NCBI RefSeq assembly: GCF_000813985.1 | Contig: NZ_JWLJ01000001.1 | Coordinates: 62,001 to 126,000 of the forward strand | Direction of reading: 5' to 3' | DNA: 64,000 nucleotides | DNA from: Ruegeria sp. ANG-R | Lineage (GTDB): Bacteria > Pseudomonadota > Alphaproteobacteria > Rhodobacterales > Rhodobacteraceae | Shown: one piece after another, positions 33,656-42,063 of the stretch | Layout of the letters: each line of letters starts with the position of its first letter | Position numbering within the stretch: position 1 is the stretch's first letter | Program-made: the position numbers and the translations under genes | Notes under the pieces: generated by a model | What the model saw: the letters and a program-made list of their open reading frames with translations, nothing else | What the model was told of the DNA's origin: nothing | Databases searched by the model: none

Positions 33656-34186
33656 ATGAAAAATGAAACTCTTGAGCTCTATCACGGCGGTAAATTTCCG
33701 GACCACAATTCTGTTTGGCCCTTGCAACACTTCGGGACTTTGGATGCGGCGTTGGGAAGAATCGCAACCAACTATCATGATTGTCTCCCTGGTCGGGAAG
33801 TAGCAAACATCCTCTACCGTTGCGAAGTAGACTTGGGCGATCACGTTAAACAAGTGTCAGACTGGATTGTGGCTCAGCCTGCAGGGTTCATTCTCCTGTT
33901 CGAGCAGATCAATTTGCTGGGCTGGGATCGGCGGTCTTACCGCGAACTTATGGCGAAAGTCTCGGAAATGCAGAGACAGGATCAGTTTTCAGCGCTGATG
34001 CAGGTGGTGGACAACCTCGTGCCAACAGGTGTTTCCGCTTTCCGTTATCCAAACGAACATGAAGGGCAAAAAGGTGAGGATTCCTATTGTGTTGTTGATC
34101 CAAAATCAGTTCGGGTCCTGAGCCATCGTATCGTCGAGCGGTGTGAGGTGGAGCATCTGCCGCCGTTCGCTGCCGAATTTACTTAG
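33656..34186 (+). CDS. Unknown protein with ADP-ribosyltransferase-like N-terminus
   Basis: A 176-residue protein. The beginning has LYHGG followed about 18 residues later by HFGTLDAALGRI, the spacing and residues seen in several ADP-ribosyltransferase-fold enzymes (a Y-H-G-T strand and an HFGT---A helix). Later, GEDSYCVVDPKSVRVLS could be the last strand with its acidic residue. I cannot name a family. ART-fold proteins in such accessory places are often toxins or effectors, but no immunity gene is obvious next to it. No signal peptide. Weak ribosome site, GGAAG at a distance of about 14 bases. Confidence 0.55.
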   Translation: MKNETLELYHGGKFPDHNSVWPLQHFGTLDAALGRIATNYHDCLPGREVANILYRCEVDLGDHVKQVSDWIVAQPAGFILLFEQINLLGWDRRSYRELMAKVSEMQRQDQFSALMQVVDNLVPTGVSAFRYPNEHEGQKGEDSYCVVDPKSVRVLSHRIVERCEVEHLPPFAAEFT

Positions 34187-34255: not shown

Positions 34256-34787
34256 TCAGAAACTGAAGCCAGCCAACCAAGCTTGAGCGAGATCGGCCGC
34301 ATCGGTGCCTGCTCGGTGGGTCGACGATCTGTTTGCCCTGACCATGAAGATTTTGTGGATGCGGCCTGTCGCACTGGAGCCTTCCTGAGCGCAGGCCTGA
34401 CAGACGGACATATCGAAAGCACCCAGTTCGATACCATGGTCGGCATCGAACACACTCATTAGCCGGTCGAGCCAGTATTGGTCGAATACGGGCGCATCGT
34501 TGAGAGTGAATTCTCGGGCGACTTTATCAGTATGCCAGCCCGCGATGTCTTTCGCCAGTTCGGCATCTGCGAGTTCCTCCAACGAGATGCAATGGACGGC
34601 GGCGCTGTCCAGATGCCACTCCGACATGAACCATGATGGATGCGGCCGGATCAATTTGCTGTCGACAAGCATCTCCCTGTTCGATCCGTGCTATGCCAGC
34701 GTCGATCGACCAACTCGCGGGGCTCAGGCTCGAAGCCTCAAAGTCGATGAATACCGTCTGCCTTACGTTTTCCTTTCTGATCTGCGT
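34256..34787 (-). pseudogene. DnaQ-like 3'-5' exonuclease, frameshifted
   Basis: Two frames together make a DEDDh-type exonuclease. The upstream frame reads TVFIDFEASSLSPASWSIDA, the first catalytic Asp-x-Glu motif. The downstream frame from about 34672 reads VDSKLIRPHPSW, SAAVHCISLEELADAELA (helix after the usual H-x-I) and ends with the HRAGTDAADLAQAW motif, carrying the catalytic His and Asp. The join lies near 34660-34675 and needs one added base. With all motifs present but in two frames, the gene is either freshly broken or a sequence error is present. No start codon of the first frame is convincing. Confidence 0.7.
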
Positions 34788-34990: not shown

Positions 34991-37471
34991 TTACGCAGTA
35001 GCCAATTCCGGCAAGGAATCGGCCTTTTTCAGCTCATAATACTTGGTCCTGCCGATGCCGAGTGCCAGCCAGGGCTTTGTCCGGGAGGCATTGTTCTCGG
35101 CCAGGTATTCGTCGCGTGTGGCTGCACCCTGTGCCGCCTGCCGCGCGCGCTCAGTAACCGCCTTGCGGTGCTTACGCTCTTCAACCGGGACGACCTGCCG
35201 CAAACCAAGATCCCGAGCCAACTGGGCCGAGATTCCCAGCTTTTCGGCGATCGTTGACCCCTTGTAGCTGTAGCGCCCATCCTTCCAGACACAATGGGAA
35301 GTCGGACGGCTTGCCTTGTCCAAGGCTTGCCTGATGGTTGCCCGCACGTCATTCGGCTTCAGCCCCGGTGTGGCGATGGCGGCCATGTTGGTGATCTGCG
35401 CTTCGATGTCACCGGCGTTCGGGAAATACGTCAGACAGGTCGCATAAAAATGCAGCCAGGTGTTACGATGGCCGACTGGAACCACCCCGCCGCAGTAGGT
35501 CCGGAAGGTCTCCAAGTCATCCATGATCTGTCGGAACCTCTGAGCTTGGGTGAGCCCCCTCGGCATGGCATCACCAGTCTTCGGCGACCTTTTCTTCCCT
35601 GCCTCTTTCCTGGTCAGGAGTTCCGCTCGGGTGTGCCCGGCGATGGCTTGGCGTTGACCGTCTGAAACCAGCGCGGAATTCAGCCTGCTCGACAGGGTTT
35701 TACGCATGGCGTAGAAGTCCTCGTCGAAATCACCAAGATCCAACCGGTCGAGAATACGGCGCAGATGTTTGCCGAAGGCGCTTGTCACATCGCCGCTGGT
35801 TGTCCGCCGTGCCGCTTCAGGGAAAAGGAGCACTCCATGCTCTTCCCGGAGTGAGTGGAACCAATCCATGAACCCAAGATCCAGAAGAAGCTGAGGCACT
35901 GGAACAACGCGCTTGCTTTCCTCGGTTTTGCCCGGTTGTTCTGGCCCTGTCCCGAGGGCAAAGCAATAGTGACCGTTACGATATCGGATGTCGCTGCGTT
36001 TCAGAAGCAGGATTTCCTCAATACGCGAGCCGATTGTGAGGACTACAAGTGGCACCCAATAAGTGGCGTCACGGATGATCATCGGTCCACGTTTCGAACG
36101 GCGATGCTCGGATGCGCAACCGGTGAATATCGGCGATGTCAGGAAGCTCGCCAGCCGCTCTTCCGTCCAGGGCATACGGATCTTGGGTTTGGTCACACGC
36201 ACATAGAGTTCGTCATTTGGAGCCTGTGCCGCGATATGCCATTCAACCTCCTTATAGGACAACGCTTCCGGTGGCTCGATGCCGAGATCTTTGGCGCTCT
36301 TGAACATGCGGTTCAGTCCGTCCCGATCTCGCTTGATGGTCGTCATCGTGCGGCGTGGTATCAGGTTATCGGCAAGGATCGCCCGCTTTTCCGCGATTGA
36401 AATATCATCCCGTTCCCTGATCTCTTCGGTCACCAAAAGGTCATGAGCATCAGCCGTTGAGATCTCAGTTGCCTTCAAGATTTTCTTGCCATCTTTGTTG
36501 AAGCGGTTTTTGCCGTGACTGCGACCTTGGGTGCGGGGCAATCGGGCTTCCCACGCAAAGAACTCTTTTTGACGTTCTTTTGAGATCGCTGGGACGGGAA
36601 TGTCCCCGAAGAATTCCAATGTCAGCCTTTCCAACGCATTGATATTGCCCTGCATTGACTTGGTTGGATAGTTCGCCCGAGTCTGGGCCCACGCTTGGGA
36701 AAGTAGGACGGGTTCCTGAACGAAGTTGTCAAAGTCCTCAATACCATGATCGTTGAGCAATGCGCGACTCGCTGACTGCACATCGTCGCCCTCTATGACG
36801 TCGCTTTCGACATCGTTGATGCGTCGTTTTAACGAAGTTGCCTGGCGACCAAGGTCCGGCGAGAGCGGGTCAGGCAAGGAAAGCGAGATCATTCCATTGG
36901 CTTGCTTGAGCAGGGCTTGCACTCCTGCCCAATCTTCGGTTCTGGCGGCACGGCGCAGTTTCTTGTTTTCAGCTTCGAGCTTCTCAATGCGCACATCAAC
37001 GTCTTCGTCGGACATGTTGCCCATGCTCTGTTGCTCGATAAGAATCCGGGCCAGTTCCGCCCGAAGGGCTTCGGTCAGCAGAGCCTTTGCATCGGCGGGG
37101 GCCAGGGTAGTTGTTTTCAGCATGTCCACGATTTCGATCTCCTTTTGCTCGTAGACCGCGAGGAGCCTTGCGGCGCGCATCACGGCGTCGTGCGGGAGAT
37201 CGGTTCGCAACGAAAAACAGAGAAATGAGTTTGTTTGTAAGTTTGTTAGGGTCTTCGGCAGGCGTTTGCGGAAATAGAAAAACCGGCCCCTTCGCATAAG
37301 GTAGGGACAGGCGCAGTGTTTGGGTTTTCGACGGGACGAGTCGGCACGCTTGCGGGCATAGCGCGCAACGGCATGTGTTACACTCTGTATCACAGTTTCT
37401 GAGGACTGTGACACGCGGCGCGTCAGGGACAGGTCTCGCCCTTTGATTTCATTGGCTTTTGGGAAATTCAT
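34991..37471 (-). CDS. Large atypical tyrosine recombinase-like protein with extra C-terminal domain
   Basis: An 826-residue protein starting MNFPKANEIKG. The middle has the recombinase catalytic fold: Arg483 in LTIGSRIEEILLLKRSDI, a Lys region, YAMRKTLSSRL (Arg590, where HxxR is usual, so the first His is lost) and IAGHT (His613). No Tyr follows at the expected 8-10 residues (RAELLTRKEAGKKRS follows instead). A coiled-coil-like Glu/Lys-rich stretch lies at about 155-176. From about residue 640 a different domain begins (PVGHRNTWLHFYATCL, YSYKGSTIAEKLGIS, GIGRTKYYELKKA at the end), resembling the C-terminal part of replication-type proteins with a final helix-turn-helix. The start ATG shares its A with the CCA end of the partial tRNA copy, so there is no ribosome site of its own. 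It belongs to a second element next to tRNA-Gln. Confidence 0.75.
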   Translation of the reverse strand: MNFPKANEIKGRDLSLTRRVSQSSETVIQSVTHAVARYARKRADSSRRKPKHCACPYLMRRGRFFYFRKRLPKTLTNLQTNSFLCFSLRTDLPHDAVMRAARLLAVYEQKEIEIVDMLKTTTLAPADAKALLTEALRAELARILIEQQSMGNMSDEDVDVRIEKLEAENKKLRRAARTEDWAGVQALLKQANGMISLSLPDPLSPDLGRQATSLKRRINDVESDVIEGDDVQSASRALLNDHGIEDFDNFVQEPVLLSQAWAQTRANYPTKSMQGNINALERLTLEFFGDIPVPAISKERQKEFFAWEARLPRTQGRSHGKNRFNKDGKKILKATEISTADAHDLLVTEEIRERDDISIAEKRAILADNLIPRRTMTTIKRDRDGLNRMFKSAKDLGIEPPEALSYKEVEWHIAAQAPNDELYVRVTKPKIRMPWTEERLASFLTSPIFTGCASEHRRSKRGPMIIRDATYWVPLVVLTIGSRIEEILLLKRSDIRYRNGHYCFALGTGPEQPGKTEESKRVVPVPQLLLDLGFMDWFHSLREEHGVLLFPEAARRTTSGDVTSAFGKHLRRILDRLDLGDFDEDFYAMRKTLSSRLNSALVSDGQRQAIAGHTRAELLTRKEAGKKRSPKTGDAMPRGLTQAQRFRQIMDDLETFRTYCGGVVPVGHRNTWLHFYATCLTYFPNAGDIEAQITNMAAIATPGLKPNDVRATIRQALDKASRPTSHCVWKDGRYSYKGSTIAEKLGISAQLARDLGLRQVVPVEERKHRKAVTERARQAAQGAATRDEYLAENNASRTKPWLALGIGRTKYYELKKADSLPELATA

Positions 37472-37516
37472 GGCTGGGGTGGTAGGATTCGAACCTACGA
37501 TACACGGTACCAAAAA
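37471..37516 (-). repeat. Inner att site: 46-bp copy of tRNA-Gln 3' half
   Basis: Identical over 46 bases to 41989-42034, the part of tRNA-Gln from the anticodon loop to CCA. The 5' half of a tRNA is absent, so this is not a tRNA gene but the attachment-site copy left by island integration. The integrase to its left starts at its first base. Confidence 0.92.
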
Positions 37517-37975: not shown

Positions 37976-39583
37976 CTAGCCCGATAGGTACTCTAGGACT
38001 GATGCAATGGCGGCGTTACGCATACGCCTTGCTCTCACGTCACCAACATAGTGGGCTTCTTTTAATTTGGTTTCTGATGCAGCTAAAACGTCACCGACAG
38101 TCTTGAGTTCAAGTTCATCCAGTTTGGATCTTTGCCAATCGGTAATGTCCAAAACTGTGTTAGGCTTGGACAATTGGTCAGCCAAATCAAACCCTTCTTG
38201 AATCTGAGAAAGATCGATGTTCTGTTGGAGTAGTGGTGCAAATGCAGGGTGATTTGCCCCGTATTCGCTCATACGTTTGGGAGTGAGTGCAGTGGCGATC
38301 TGGAACGAAGTTGTCGCGGGTGTCGCCTCAAGGGCGAACAAACAACCTAAGTTGACTATGTACCTCTTGCCAACTTCGCTGCGGGTCGCACGAATACCCC
38401 CCGAGTGTTCTGTAAGTACGCCGGTGTAACATAGGATTCGAAGAGCTTCTTTGACTATTTCTGGGGCATCCCGATGAATCCAAATGTACGAAGTTGAGTT
38501 CTTTTCTCTTTCAAGATACCCATCATTCTTGACCTTAAGCTCCGGAAGAACGGTGTCTTCAAGGAAATCGCGGCCCCAGTCGATTACCGATTTATGACCA
38601 AGGTATTTATCTGACAGGGCAGAATGCTCCGCCCAAATTCCACCACGGTAAAACTCGCGGATGACAGAGTTCACTTCGCTAGAATTCATCTTTGGAGCTG
38701 TAGCAACTGTCTTAAGTAGCAGACGCGGATTTCCAGTAGCGGCGTAAGCCAAAATTGCGAAATTCTGCCGGTTACGGGTAATACTCTTCAACAGGCCAGA
38801 GTCAGCTTGTTTTTCAACGATTTTTCGCATGCTTGCGACGTATTCATCTGACCCAATGTCCCGATTAATGGAAACCATCGTGGCGTCATGAGTCGGCTGA
38901 AAAGTATCCCCGTAACTTGTAACTCCGGGGTAAACGGCGGCATTGCATGTCACGCAGTGGCTGCGAAGGTCACGAAAGAGGGTAAAGAACTGCCTTTGTT
39001 GAGTGGGCAGAAAGATGTGAGCAGCCTCGTCCATGAAGAGTGAGAATCTTTGGATGCCGAGCTCTTCCGACAAATCCTCCAAAGCTTCCTTAACGTCTTC
39101 GATGCCCGGTACTGCGCTGCTGTCAATCTTTTGGTTGGGATTTCTCCAAGACTCTTCGTAAGACTTAATTATTCGTTCCAAGCCATCGGTGTCGGAATGA
39201 TCTGCGGGTAACCCAGCAAGGATGTTGGCGCTGCTAGGCACGGTACCAAGCAAACCCATTTTTTTGACTTTGCGCAACACAGCTCTGCACACTCTTGCGA
39301 GCATCCAATGTCGGAATTGATCTGGATCACCAGTTCTCAAGAGTGAGCTACTAACGAACGTCACATAAACCGGCACCACTTTCGATGTTTTGTACTCGGT
39401 GGCCAACTCTTTCTCGGCTACACGCATCAGGAAGGATTTTCCGACACCTCGGCTGCCAACCAGTATTGTTGGATTTCTACCCTTCAATTGGTCTATGGCC
39501 AAACGATCTTCCTGAGTCTCGACAAAATATTTGAGGATGTCGGTTGGCCCGATGTCTTCCGTTCTATAAAAAAATTCATTCAT
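37976..39583 (-). CDS. ORC/Cdc6-like AAA+ ATPase of the tRNA-Gln island
   Basis: A 535-residue P-loop ATPase. Walker A is GSRGVGKS (43-50), Walker B FSLFMDE (180-186) and a sensor-2-like ATGNPRLLLK stands at about 282-291. A winged-helix-like region (about 375-420, YTGVLTEHSGGIRATRSEVG) follows. The C-terminus (about 487-535, LELKTVGDVLAASETKL then DVRARRMRNAAIASVLEYL) resembles a helix-hairpin-helix nucleic-acid-binding domain. This set recalls ORC1/Cdc6-type and STAND-like ATPases. It starts 5 bases after the stop of the HEPN-like gene, so the two are co-translated. In the family such ATPases act as switches or loaders; here it probably senses a trigger and controls the partner, by inference. 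Confidence 0.8.
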   Translation of the reverse strand: MNEFFYRTEDIGPTDILKYFVETQEDRLAIDQLKGRNPTILVGSRGVGKSFLMRVAEKELATEYKTSKVVPVYVTFVSSSLLRTGDPDQFRHWMLARVCRAVLRKVKKMGLLGTVPSSANILAGLPADHSDTDGLERIIKSYEESWRNPNQKIDSSAVPGIEDVKEALEDLSEELGIQRFSLFMDEAAHIFLPTQQRQFFTLFRDLRSHCVTCNAAVYPGVTSYGDTFQPTHDATMVSINRDIGSDEYVASMRKIVEKQADSGLLKSITRNRQNFAILAYAATGNPRLLLKTVATAPKMNSSEVNSVIREFYRGGIWAEHSALSDKYLGHKSVIDWGRDFLEDTVLPELKVKNDGYLEREKNSTSYIWIHRDAPEIVKEALRILCYTGVLTEHSGGIRATRSEVGKRYIVNLGCLFALEATPATTSFQIATALTPKRMSEYGANHPAFAPLLQQNIDLSQIQEGFDLADQLSKPNTVLDITDWQRSKLDELELKTVGDVLAASETKLKEAHYVGDVRARRMRNAAIASVLEYLSG

Positions 39584-39588
39584 CGGCC

Positions 39589-40293
39589 TTAATCCTCAAA
39601 AATTGCTTGAATTGGGGCCAGGTCACCAAACCCTTCGAGCACCAAGTCTTCAAGCTCGTTTTTCACTTCTGCCGAAGCATCCCTTAAGTGTCGACATATG
39701 AAAGCGAATTTAACGATCAGTCTTGCAGTGTCAGCTCGGTCAGCCCAAGCTTCTAGTACATCCGGATTATATGAAATCTCGGTATCTATGCCTTCATAGG
39801 ATTGTCTGTTCCCATGAACGAACTCCGAGCATTCTCTGTACAGGGTCTTTGCAAGGCTGCGGTATTGATCGCAGTGCTCTTTCATCTCTTCAAAAAAGGC
39901 CCCGACAAAGTGCTTAGAGAACACTCCGTTCTGTTCGTTTATGATTGATTGCCAATTCGAGTCTTTTTGATCTTTGAGCCACAAGCGAATGTCGATCTCA
40001 TGAGCTGAGAAAAGAATGCAGCATAGCGAAAGCTCGAAAAACAGCCGAAGGCTTATGTGCGCCTGACGGTATTGTGCGAATGAAGCCGAATAAAGAGCAT
40101 GTTGGTACTCAACTCGAGCCAGTTTGAACATGGTTGCTTCAGTTCTATCGGCTATTAGACGCTCTAGCTGATCAATATCTGCGGCGTCGTTGTGTGCTAC
40201 CGTGAATTGAGCCATTTTTTCGCCGTCATTCTGTAGCTCGCTAAGAGCTGTCTGACTGCGTGATAGTAACTGCGAGTAGTGATCTACAACCAT
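39589..40293 (-). CDS. HEPN-like protein with Rx6H motif, partner of the ATPase
   Basis: A 234-residue helical protein without a recognised family name. Residues 151-162 read LYRECSEFVHGN: Arg153 and His160 make an Rx6H motif, the catalytic signature of HEPN ribonucleases, in a helix with the usual aromatic/acidic neighbours. The rest is amphipathic helices (LISxRTEATMFKLARVEYQ, HISLRLFFELSLCC, ARLIVKFAFICRHLRDA), as expected for a HEPN dimer. It is the first gene of a two-gene operon with the AAA+ ATPase, on a mobile island. A toxin-like RNase kept in check or triggered by the ATPase is a reasonable hypothesis. The HEPN call rests on this motif and the helical pattern only. Confidence 0.65.
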   Translation of the reverse strand: MVVDHYSQLLSRSQTALSELQNDGEKMAQFTVAHNDAADIDQLERLIADRTEATMFKLARVEYQHALYSASFAQYRQAHISLRLFFELSLCCILFSAHEIDIRLWLKDQKDSNWQSIINEQNGVFSKHFVGAFFEEMKEHCDQYRSLAKTLYRECSEFVHGNRQSYEGIDTEISYNPDVLEAWADRADTARLIVKFAFICRHLRDASAEVKNELEDLVLEGFGDLAPIQAIFED

Positions 40294-40557: not shown

Positions 40558-41841
40558 CTAAGACTCTGAGGAGTCGTCGCGATCAAGAGGTTCGCGTTCC
40601 TCAAGGTCGGTTTCTTCATTGTGTTTTGACGCTTCACCTGTGTCATCTTTTAGTGAAACTTGATCAGGGGGAGGCATGAAGGTCTCCGCTACCATTTCGG
40701 CTATGGCCTGCATTTTTTCTTTTTCATCACTGATGAGATGACCATACTGCGACATAGTGAACGACGCGTTGTGGTGACCAAGAAGTTTTTGAGCTTCCAA
40801 ATACTTCCCACGAAGCATCAACTCAGAAGCAAACTTGTGCCGCAAGGTGTGGAGGCCCCGTTGTCTGACCCCTGCAATTCTCTGGACTCGATACCAACCG
40901 TAGTTGTTGACTTGAGAATGATGCATTGGAAGCCCGGCTTTGGTGCAGAAAACAAAGTCGTGTTCATGGGTAGCAAGGTAATCAATTAACCAGCGTCGCG
41001 CCAGCGAACCGATGGGGACCGCGCGGTAGGCATTAGCAGACTTCATTTTCCCGACCCTGTCGCTGTCTGGTCTGCCGCGCCTACTTTGATCAACCTTCCT
41101 GCGCAGAGTAATAGACGTGAAATCCTCAGAAATATCGCTTCGCTTGATGCCAAGGGCTTCCGAAATTCTAACTCCGGTTGACGCAATCAATGCAATTAGT
41201 GCGCTGTATTTTATCCAACTCCGCCTAACTTGCTTGTTGGGGTGCTTGCGAAGTTCAGCGAGAGTTTGAAAAATGATACTGACTTCCGCTCGAGTATGCA
41301 GTGATCGTGAAGTAGGCCCGCTCCTGCCGTCGTTCAACTGAACTGCCAATTTGTAGGCAGGGCTTTTGACGATAAGGTCCCTCGCTACAGCCCAGTTCAA
41401 GATTGACTTGGAAAGGTCGAATGCATGCTTGGCGGTTTGTCTAGAGGTGAACTTCTCAGTGAGCTGTCCCATGAACATGCTCATTTTGTCTCTGGTCAGT
41501 TCGTTCAGAGGTACATTCCCAATGTACGGGAGTACGTGCTCGTCCAAGTAATGTTGATAGCCCTTAAGCGTTGAGTACTCGAGCGGCATTTTCCCATACC
41601 TGCCGCGCTTTGAAGCTTCCATATATTGTTCGGCGAGCTGAGAGAATTTCATCTCCCGCATGCCCGGACCGACCTGAGAAGCGTTCATTGCCTCGATTTC
41701 TCGCTTGCGTTGCTTAGCTTCAGCCAGAGACTTGAAAGTCTCCTCCTTATATTTTTCACTCCAATCACAGTACCAACGCACTCTGTACCGTCTGGAATCG
41801 CCAATGATTCTGTCACTTATACGAACGCTTTTGCTGCGCAT
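40558..41841 (-). CDS. Tyrosine site-specific integrase of the tRNA-Gln island
   Basis: A 427-residue phage/island-type integrase starting MRSKSVRISDRIIG, with GGGAGA about 7 bases before the ATG. An N-terminal arm-binding domain with an Arg/Trp-rich beta-sheet (RVRWYCDWSEKYKEETF) is followed by a SAM-like core domain and a catalytic domain: Arg in STGVRISEALGI, HTLRHKFASEL with His and Arg, LLGHHNASFTMSQYGHL with His and the nucleophile Tyr. All catalytic residues are present. It stands 147 bases from tRNA-Gln, read away from it, the normal position of an island integrase, and should catalyse exchange between the 46-bp att repeats. Confidence 0.94.
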   Translation of the reverse strand: MRSKSVRISDRIIGDSRRYRVRWYCDWSEKYKEETFKSLAEAKQRKREIEAMNASQVGPGMREMKFSQLAEQYMEASKRGRYGKMPLEYSTLKGYQHYLDEHVLPYIGNVPLNELTRDKMSMFMGQLTEKFTSRQTAKHAFDLSKSILNWAVARDLIVKSPAYKLAVQLNDGRSGPTSRSLHTRAEVSIIFQTLAELRKHPNKQVRRSWIKYSALIALIASTGVRISEALGIKRSDISEDFTSITLRRKVDQSRRGRPDSDRVGKMKSANAYRAVPIGSLARRWLIDYLATHEHDFVFCTKAGLPMHHSQVNNYGWYRVQRIAGVRQRGLHTLRHKFASELMLRGKYLEAQKLLGHHNASFTMSQYGHLISDEKEKMQAIAEMVAETFMPPPDQVSLKDDTGEASKHNEETDLEEREPLDRDDSSES

Positions 41842-41988
41842 GTCGTTGTCTCCCGTTGTTTTTTGGGGGACGCAGCCGGCCGGAACCGCGACCATGCACT
41901 ATCTGTGGGGGAGGTGTGGGGCAGAAATCAAGGTAAGTATAACTTACATCTTGATCGCTTCTAAGTATTTGATTTTTAAGAAGTTTTG

Positions 41989-42034
41989 TGGCTGGGGTGG
42001 TAGGATTCGAACCTACGATACACGGTACCAAAAA
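41989..42034 (-). repeat. Outer att site within tRNA-Gln
   Basis: The 46 bases from the anticodon loop to the CCA end of the tRNA gene, exactly repeated at 37471-37516. This is the crossover region used by the island. Confidence 0.92.
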
Positions 42035-42063
42035 CCGCTGCCTTACCACTTGGCTACACCCCA
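41989..42063 (-). tRNA. tRNA-Gln (anticodon UUG)
   Basis: A complete cloverleaf on the minus strand: acceptor TGGGGTG/CACCCCA, D-arm GCCAAGTGGTAAGGC, anticodon stem GCGGT/ACCGT with loop TTTTGGT (anticodon TTG), T-arm GTAGG-TTCGAAT-CCTAC, discriminator G and encoded CCA. The 3' half serves as integration target, restored by the island's own copy. Confidence 0.95.

Follow-up and report, generated by a model that had tools for sequence, protein, structure and literature searches.

A gene pair encoding an HEPN-like protein and an ORC/Cdc6-like ATPase on a minimal tRNA-Gln element of Ruegeria: a candidate two-gene defense module

What can two coupled genes do for a bacterium when they are all that a small integrated element carries besides its own integrase? 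The question is raised by a 64,000-nt stretch of Ruegeria sp. ANG-R (contig NZ_JWLJ01000001.1; hereafter the window, whose numbering is used below and whose genome is called G000), in which two minus-strand open reading frames (ORFs), 5 bp apart, encode an HEPN-like protein of 234 amino acids (aa; 39589..40293) and an ORC/Cdc6-like AAA+ ATPase of 535 aa (37976..39583). An initial annotation, made from the DNA letters, had placed both ORFs at exactly these positions and had suggested an anti-phage pair. The analysis presented here favors, with reasonable though incomplete confidence, a two-gene anti-invader module on a minimal integrative element, in which the ATPase would be the probable sensor and switch gating an HEPN RNase effector.

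The pairing was found to recur well beyond Ruegeria. A collection described as representing 84,980 species by a single genome each was scanned with two peptide patterns, built on three aligned ATPases that were all already paired, and 25 loci were obtained. In all 25, an HEPN-like gene lay immediately upstream of the ATPase gene and on the same strand, being cut by the contig end in L013 and L016 and carrying an internal stop in L029; hence, the co-occurrence that the initial annotation had proposed to look for was found. One of these loci, L022, is the one first met as L005/G223, and L009 and G684 are one contig. The pair was also present on one Planktothrix plasmid and in 3/3 viral contigs with an ATPase of the same clade. 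The intergenic spacing in 28 homologous pairs ranged from -8 to +24 bp (ATPase starts being taken from the homology match), and the hosts belonged to Pseudomonadota, Myxococcota, Verrucomicrobiota, Bacteroidota and Cyanobacteria (L004 and L028).

The evolutionary distances of the two proteins were then compared in 22 pairs, leaving out L016 and L028 (partial) and the rows without a partner. The Mantel correlation was 0.954, a value that none of 5000 permutations reached, which shows a shared history and not an interaction; L028 was also left out of the tree. The HEPN and ATPase profiles were mutually unrelated. When viral contigs were scanned with the single HEPN protein nothing was recovered, whereas ATPase alignments used as queries did find loci. 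The ATPases of Pseudomonas viridiflava (L012) and Trinickia (Burkholderiaceae) shared 91% identity, a sign of transfer. The pair is rare, being present in 2 of 398 genomes of a phylum sample, 1 of 61 relatives and 3 of 385 genomes of a class sample (one of them weak), with the window genome counted in each.

The assignment of the 234-aa protein to the HEPN superfamily was supported by a motif and by the fold. An Rx6H motif, RECSEFVH, runs from Arg153 to His160 (39814..39837, minus strand), the two residues already named in the initial annotation. His160 was invariant in the 25 rows of the alignment and Arg153 was present in 24 of them (L005, which equals locus L022, L013, a C-terminal fragment, and L029, with its internal stop, were omitted). 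This motif is conserved and not a product of chance. Searches of Pfam, NCBIfam and PADLOC gave nothing above cut-off, the only Pfam match being BP74_N (E 0.065), and neither NCBIfam nor PADLOC had a match at E ≤ 1. Since no profile recognized the protein, it was compared by fold, and its seven best structural matches were all HEPN domains, so that the initial annotation's placement within this fold held. A conserved Rx4-6H motif and a helical-bundle fold, the features of the superfamily, are thus both present, and the protein is, judged from these features, a probable RNase effector.

Two variant partners were noted in passing. In the Jiella copy (L029, 9262-9994) the ATPase frame is intact and the stop in the HEPN gene lies in frame, upstream of the motif. 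A distant ATPase, found as a single case (L072, 6431-8697), has an overlapping upstream partner of 252 aa in which the sequence YSTLSKGVHWE has kept two motif residues, Ser and His, and lost the Arg; this partner is perhaps an inactive or altered HEPN.

The ATPase carries the features of the ORC/Cdc6-STAND group of AAA+ proteins, namely Walker A, Walker B, a GxPR motif and the fold. It matched the Pfam family ORC-CDC6-like (PF24389) with E 1.6e-13 and 50.7 bits against a cut-off of 27, in two stretches of which the best covered residues 6-56 only. All 26 rows of the ATPase alignment agreed in the Walker A sequence GSRGVGKS (residues 43-50; 39434..39457, minus strand) at G43, S44, R45, G46, G48, K49 and S50, in the Walker B pair Asp185-Glu186 (39026..39031, minus strand), in Arg241 and in the GNPR motif (G284/R287). 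The best Foldseek match of the model was archaeal Cdc6/Orc1 (E 1.2e-5), one of 15 chains at E ≤ 0.001, and the best VIA matches were archaeal ATPases, CED-4, a plant resistosome, Cdc6 and TnsC. ORC/Cdc6, TnsC and STAND proteins bind nucleotides and oligomerize, and ORC/Cdc6 and TnsC embrace DNA.

The initial annotation had also given this protein a winged helix and a C-terminal helix-hairpin-helix (HhH). The second was borne out by a domain resembling HhH and the C-terminal domain of the RNA polymerase alpha subunit (alpha-CTD), at about residues 468-534 (37982..38182, minus strand): the C-terminus matched the alpha subunit 6wmp with E 7.9e-4 over profile positions 438-528 and four further alpha-subunit chains with E 0.002-0.009, and the C-termini of relatives gave weak matches to HhH profiles. 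The winged helix stands as a prediction, the order of helices and strands in the model after the AAA+ lid being compatible with it at residues 363-417 (38333..38497, minus strand), a region assigned by eye.

The element that carries the pair could be delimited exactly. It measures 4,518 bp between perfect 46-bp direct repeats; the right-end copy of the attachment site (41989..42034) lies inside the 3' half of a tRNA-Gln (TTG) gene (41989-42063, minus strand; ARAGORN and Rfam), and the left-end copy lies at 37471..37516. A tyrosine integrase of 445 aa (40558..41895, minus strand; Pfam Phage_integrase, E 5e-18) adjoins the tRNA copy and is the only gene assigned to the unit other than the HEPN/ATPase pair. 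In element-free genomes of the same genus the sequence left of window position 37516 adjoins the tRNA; the clearest empty site is L042, where a single alignment runs from within the tRNA to window position 37184, and the site is also empty in L041, L032 showing the same order with a gap. All 54 genomes of the genus, a number that includes G000, gave a match to the tRNA side of the site, many of these matches comprising only the tRNA and about 60 bases. The search of relatives recovered the HEPN gene from none of 36 genomes of the genus, G000 aside. In the Rfam scan the tRNA was the sole match, and the promoter and terminator scans stayed at chance level. The small tRNA island with the pair as its only cargo, as first annotated, is therefore real.

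Two genes that overlap or nearly touch on so tiny an integrative element could also be read as a toxin-antitoxin or addiction module that stabilizes the element, with an HEPN toxin neutralized by the ATPase and phage protection as a by-product at most. HEPN domains are common toxins, according to the accessible part of PMC3710099, and L029 retains its ATPase despite the stop in its HEPN gene. The partner, however, is a large and highly conserved AAA+ protein with ends of a DNA-binding type, unlike a typical small antitoxin. Moreover, many copies adjoin restriction or defense genes, and integrase-like genes were seen by eye in the flanks of only some loci. This explanation was considered unlikely.

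A function for the mobile element itself would be a second explanation, with an ATPase similar to ORC/Cdc6 and TnsC aiding the replication or the target choice of the island. The location of the window pair on an integrative element is in its favor, as are the high positions of TnsC and Orc1/Cdc6 in the VIA ranking. Nevertheless, many loci showed, by eye, no integrase-like gene next to the pair, a Pseudomonas locus (L012) has a Burkholderiales-like form within phage-like surroundings, and the HEPN motif would be left without a purpose. It was judged very improbable, the least credible of the explanations weighed here.

Further features were noted around the insertion site. An ORF of 840 aa (34991-37513, minus strand), a second and divergent integrase-like gene in which DUF6538 and, weakly, Phage_integrase were matched, adjoins the left attachment-site copy from outside the 4.5-kb unit. 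Two elements seem to be stacked in the same tRNA gene, since relatives have sequence like that of the 840-aa ORF directly after the tRNA. Two ORFs without a Pfam match, at 33656-34186 (plus strand, 176 aa) and 34256-34672 (minus strand, 138 aa), adjoin this second integrase-like gene and are possible cargo of the neighboring element. Elsewhere in the same genome (G000:C1:55446-55697), a fragment with 73% identity to the integrase of the element and an in-frame stop was found, perhaps an older visitor.

The surroundings of the other copies pointed to defense. In 13 of the 25 loci a known defense or restriction gene was found within the fetched flanks, and integrase-like genes of one cluster, named by eye, were present in L006 and L018, the company in which the initial annotation had proposed to look for the pair. 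The neighbors comprised Ssp phosphorothioation genes (L022, L026 and L028, the last two recognized by clustering with L004 and by DUF4007), BREX (L015), type I restriction-modification (RM; L018), type II RM (L012), C5-methyltransferases (L019 and L023), Gabija (L023), RdrA/RdrB-like genes (L014), DRT (L006), PD-Lambda-1 (L027), a DUF262-like HEC-05 gene (L020) and HNH (L030). In L007, L009 and L027 the distance from the pair to a tRNA gene was no more than 500 bp.

Three marker families were counted within 16 kb of the pair in the 25 carrier genomes other than G000, and 7 were observed against 0.41 expected, counts that are descriptive because the families and the distance were picked after the neighbors had been seen. 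By family, there were 3 copies of DUF4007 (0.033 expected), 2 C5-methyltransferases (0.22 expected) and 2 N6-methyltransferases (0.16 expected; the 13-kb distance of the one in L006 assumes that contig C9 is the contig of that locus). In these tallies nearby pieces were merged and PF02384 matches weaker than E 1e-50 were omitted.

Some of these neighborhoods contained features of their own. In P. viridiflava (L012, 6342-11611) the pair has a type II RM system on one side and, on the other, genes judged by eye to be phage-like. In L019 (4391-5431) and L023 (8035-9165), a protein of 346-376 aa, forming one cluster, adjoins the C5-methyltransferase near the pair; it had no Pfam match in either locus and no PADLOC match for the L023 copy, and is possibly an unrecognized restriction partner.

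The Ssp genes deserved separate attention. The first two neighborhoods suggested that the pair is tied exclusively to phosphorothioation, an idea dropped when DUF4007 was found in only 4 of 26 carrier genomes, in three cases no more than 16 kb from the pair. Another explanation would make the pair an accessory of DNA-modification systems (Ssp/Dnd, RM), with a DNA-tracking ATPase and an HEPN protein serving as a structural adaptor and not as an RNase. An apparently complete ssp island, recognized partly by eye, stands beside the pair in Sphingomonas (L022 and L074), the pair is found beside SspBCD in L004, L026 and L028, and SspC is itself an ATPase of the ORC/Cdc6 clade in the part of PMC10853773 that is accessible. 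Against this, DUF4007/SspB is absent from the window genome, where 0 copies of DUF4007 were found and membership of an Ssp system therefore does not apply, and from 21 of the 25 other carrier genomes. In addition, an Arg and a His of catalytic type are retained almost without exception. Such an accessory role appeared improbable, more so than an addiction module.

The relation between this ATPase and HEPN proteins was also seen in a second clade, with another partner. Four plasmid-borne ATPases of this clade 2 were 22-25% identical to the window ATPase, and the clade-2 ATPase aligns with it over most of the length, including the HhH-like C-terminal end. Each was followed by a protein of a different family with an R-x4-H motif, (I/V/L)RH..VH (4/4). 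When viral contigs were scanned with clade-2 ATPases 13 loci were obtained, to which L109 was added from a separate scan, and each of these 14 had, directly after the ATPase, a homologous gene with RH(x)3H. This count omits L108 and L110, whose contigs are identical to those of L104 and L103; since L092-L094, L095-L096 and L099-L101 are also near or exact copies, the 14 contigs represent fewer independent cases. A downstream HEPN-like R-x4-H partner was thus present in all 18 cases, and a DNA methyltransferase of one family preceded the ATPase in 13 of them (10/14 contigs and 3/4 plasmids). A search of the class sample with clade-2 ATPases found no member of the clade, only the ATPases of the window, L009 and L072 (3/289).

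The clade-2 partner was itself hard to place by profiles. One of the four plasmid proteins matched Pfam HEPN_RiboL-PSP with E 0.0012, below the cut-off, and, of three partners compared with PADLOC, that of L092 matched an HEPN model weakly (E 0.004), that of L103 matched AbiP, also weakly (E 0.0053), and that of L099 matched nothing. In PADLOC the methyltransferase of the module had a strong match, the ATPase and the HEPN-like partner having none. This module differs from the window pair in that its HEPN partner lies downstream and has no detectable homology to that of the window, its ATPase contains a zinc ribbon and a methyltransferase gene usually precedes it. Since profile comparison detected no relatedness between the HEPN families of clades 1 and 2, common descent of the partners is not claimed. 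Across the clades, the ATPase is the constant part, and its partner, an HEPN-type protein in which an Arg and a His are conserved, is the variable one.

The clade-2 module is also found in Escherichia coli. L111 (6001-9956) corresponds to E. coli HS 335287-339242 (ECHS_RS01665-01675) and encodes a methyltransferase, an ORC-CDC6 ATPase and a hypothetical protein with RHCCVH. This three-gene module lies between an integrase and BREX-1 genes, about 1.7 kb upstream of brxA; E. coli HS is a commensal, and its BREX system has reportedly been studied. DNA of the module (at least 99% identity over at least 80% of the query) was present in 145 of 5,426 complete E. coli genomes. In the RefSeq records listed, the ATPase is named 'ORC-CDC6 family AAA ATPase' or 'zinc ribbon domain-containing protein' and the third gene 'hypothetical protein'.

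No named system was found for the pair, which the initial annotation likewise did not know under a name: neither HEPN partner was convincingly matched in Pfam, NCBIfam or PADLOC, and searches of open-access PubMed Central papers turned up no description, though the figures or supplement of the DefensePredictor paper (PMC13092281), in which some validated HEPN and ATPase systems are drawn, may hold a match. As far as their accessible parts extend, PMC12839542, PMC10853773, PMC3710099, PMC13092281 and PMC9519451 deal with the ORC/Cdc6 ATPases of BREX, of Ssp and of systems related to them, with fusions of HEPN and DUF499 ATPases and with STAND-HEPN proteins, and do not mention the pair described here.

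The pair could be set against several of these. SspC and BrxC share the ORC/Cdc6 ATPase clade with it (PMC10853773 and PMC12839542, in part), and BrxC (9zll) was a structural match of the window ATPase model; the window ATPase differs in its 535 aa, its one HEPN partner and the lack of a modification gene in its element, and the window pair is not within a BREX or Ssp operon. The DUF499 ATPase-HEPN proteins related to Type-1 BREX likewise couple an ORC/Cdc6-STAND ATPase to an HEPN endoRNase, in the accessible part of PMC12839542, but they are fusions inside methyltransferase-helicase systems, whereas the window has separate genes in a stand-alone pair. RADAR is another pair of an ATPase and an effector acting on RNA, and RdrA rings (8hrb and 8hr8) were among the structural matches of the ATPase; RdrA was not among its PADLOC matches at E ≤ 1. 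The RADAR effector RdrB is an adenosine deaminase and not an HEPN protein.

DS-41 (NCBIfam NF053860), an anti-phage protein of the DefensePredictor work (PMC13092281, in part), showed a weak likeness to the N-terminus of the ATPase (E 7.7e-4; E 3.1e-6 for the Planktothrix copy). It was dropped as a named relative, the window ATPase scoring 18.5 bits against a cut-off of 370. In L087, the only member above the cut-off that was examined, no HEPN-like neighbor was seen.

The pair is therefore filed with the HEPN effector systems gated by an NTPase, and a mechanism can be proposed along these lines. The ATPase, with its ORC/Cdc6-STAND-like core, predicted winged helix and HhH/alpha-CTD-like tail, would be the sensor and switch, and would most likely sit on DNA as an ATP-dependent oligomer. 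Watching DNA or a phage product, it would release or activate the HEPN protein on meeting a sign of infection; the sensing of invading DNA, as first suggested, is plausible. The HEPN protein would then cut RNA through Arg153 and His160, and growth would stop before the invader multiplies. RNA cleavage, DNA binding, oligomerization, the trigger and abortive infection are what we infer, beyond the observed pairing, conserved motifs, predicted folds, integrated element and defense-gene neighbors.

The signal could be the modification state of the DNA, a guess hinted at by the methyltransferase linked to clade 2 and by the neighbors of clade 1, namely Ssp, BREX and RM. A more general and rather doubtful extension would see in this ATPase family general gates of RNases that read the state of DNA, as methyl or phosphorothioate marks or as replication intermediates of an invader. 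The restriction arm would then cut RNA and not DNA, and the effector would have been swapped between HEPN families while the ATPase stayed constant.

Several observations weigh against the preferred reading of an ATPase-gated RNase acting in defense. Arg153 is replaced by Lys in L026, the model of the HEPN-like protein had no Foldseek match at E ≤ 0.001, and a VIA score under about 13 is indecisive for a helical bundle. The genome scan would overlook more remote ATPases whose partners differ, since its patterns came from ATPases that were already paired, and the 'phages' collection gave no match. No defense neighbor was recorded in 12 of the 25 loci, several of them on short contigs. The 30 neighboring ORFs scanned against PADLOC were chosen by eye (20 of the 30 matched; further neighbors were compared with Pfam and NCBIfam), and the marker families and their 16-kb limit were, as stated, a choice made afterwards.

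Since the pairing recurs across bacterial groups, often beside anti-phage systems, the pair is likely, as far as its sequences indicate, an undescribed defense system. A compact pair of an RNase gated by an ATPase would thereby be added, as a candidate, to the defense repertoire, and the wider family ties DNA-modification genes to a probable RNA-cutting effector. With a related copy beside BREX in E. coli HS and in 145 genomes of this species, sensing by the ORC/Cdc6-like ATPase and switching of the HEPN protein are directly testable.

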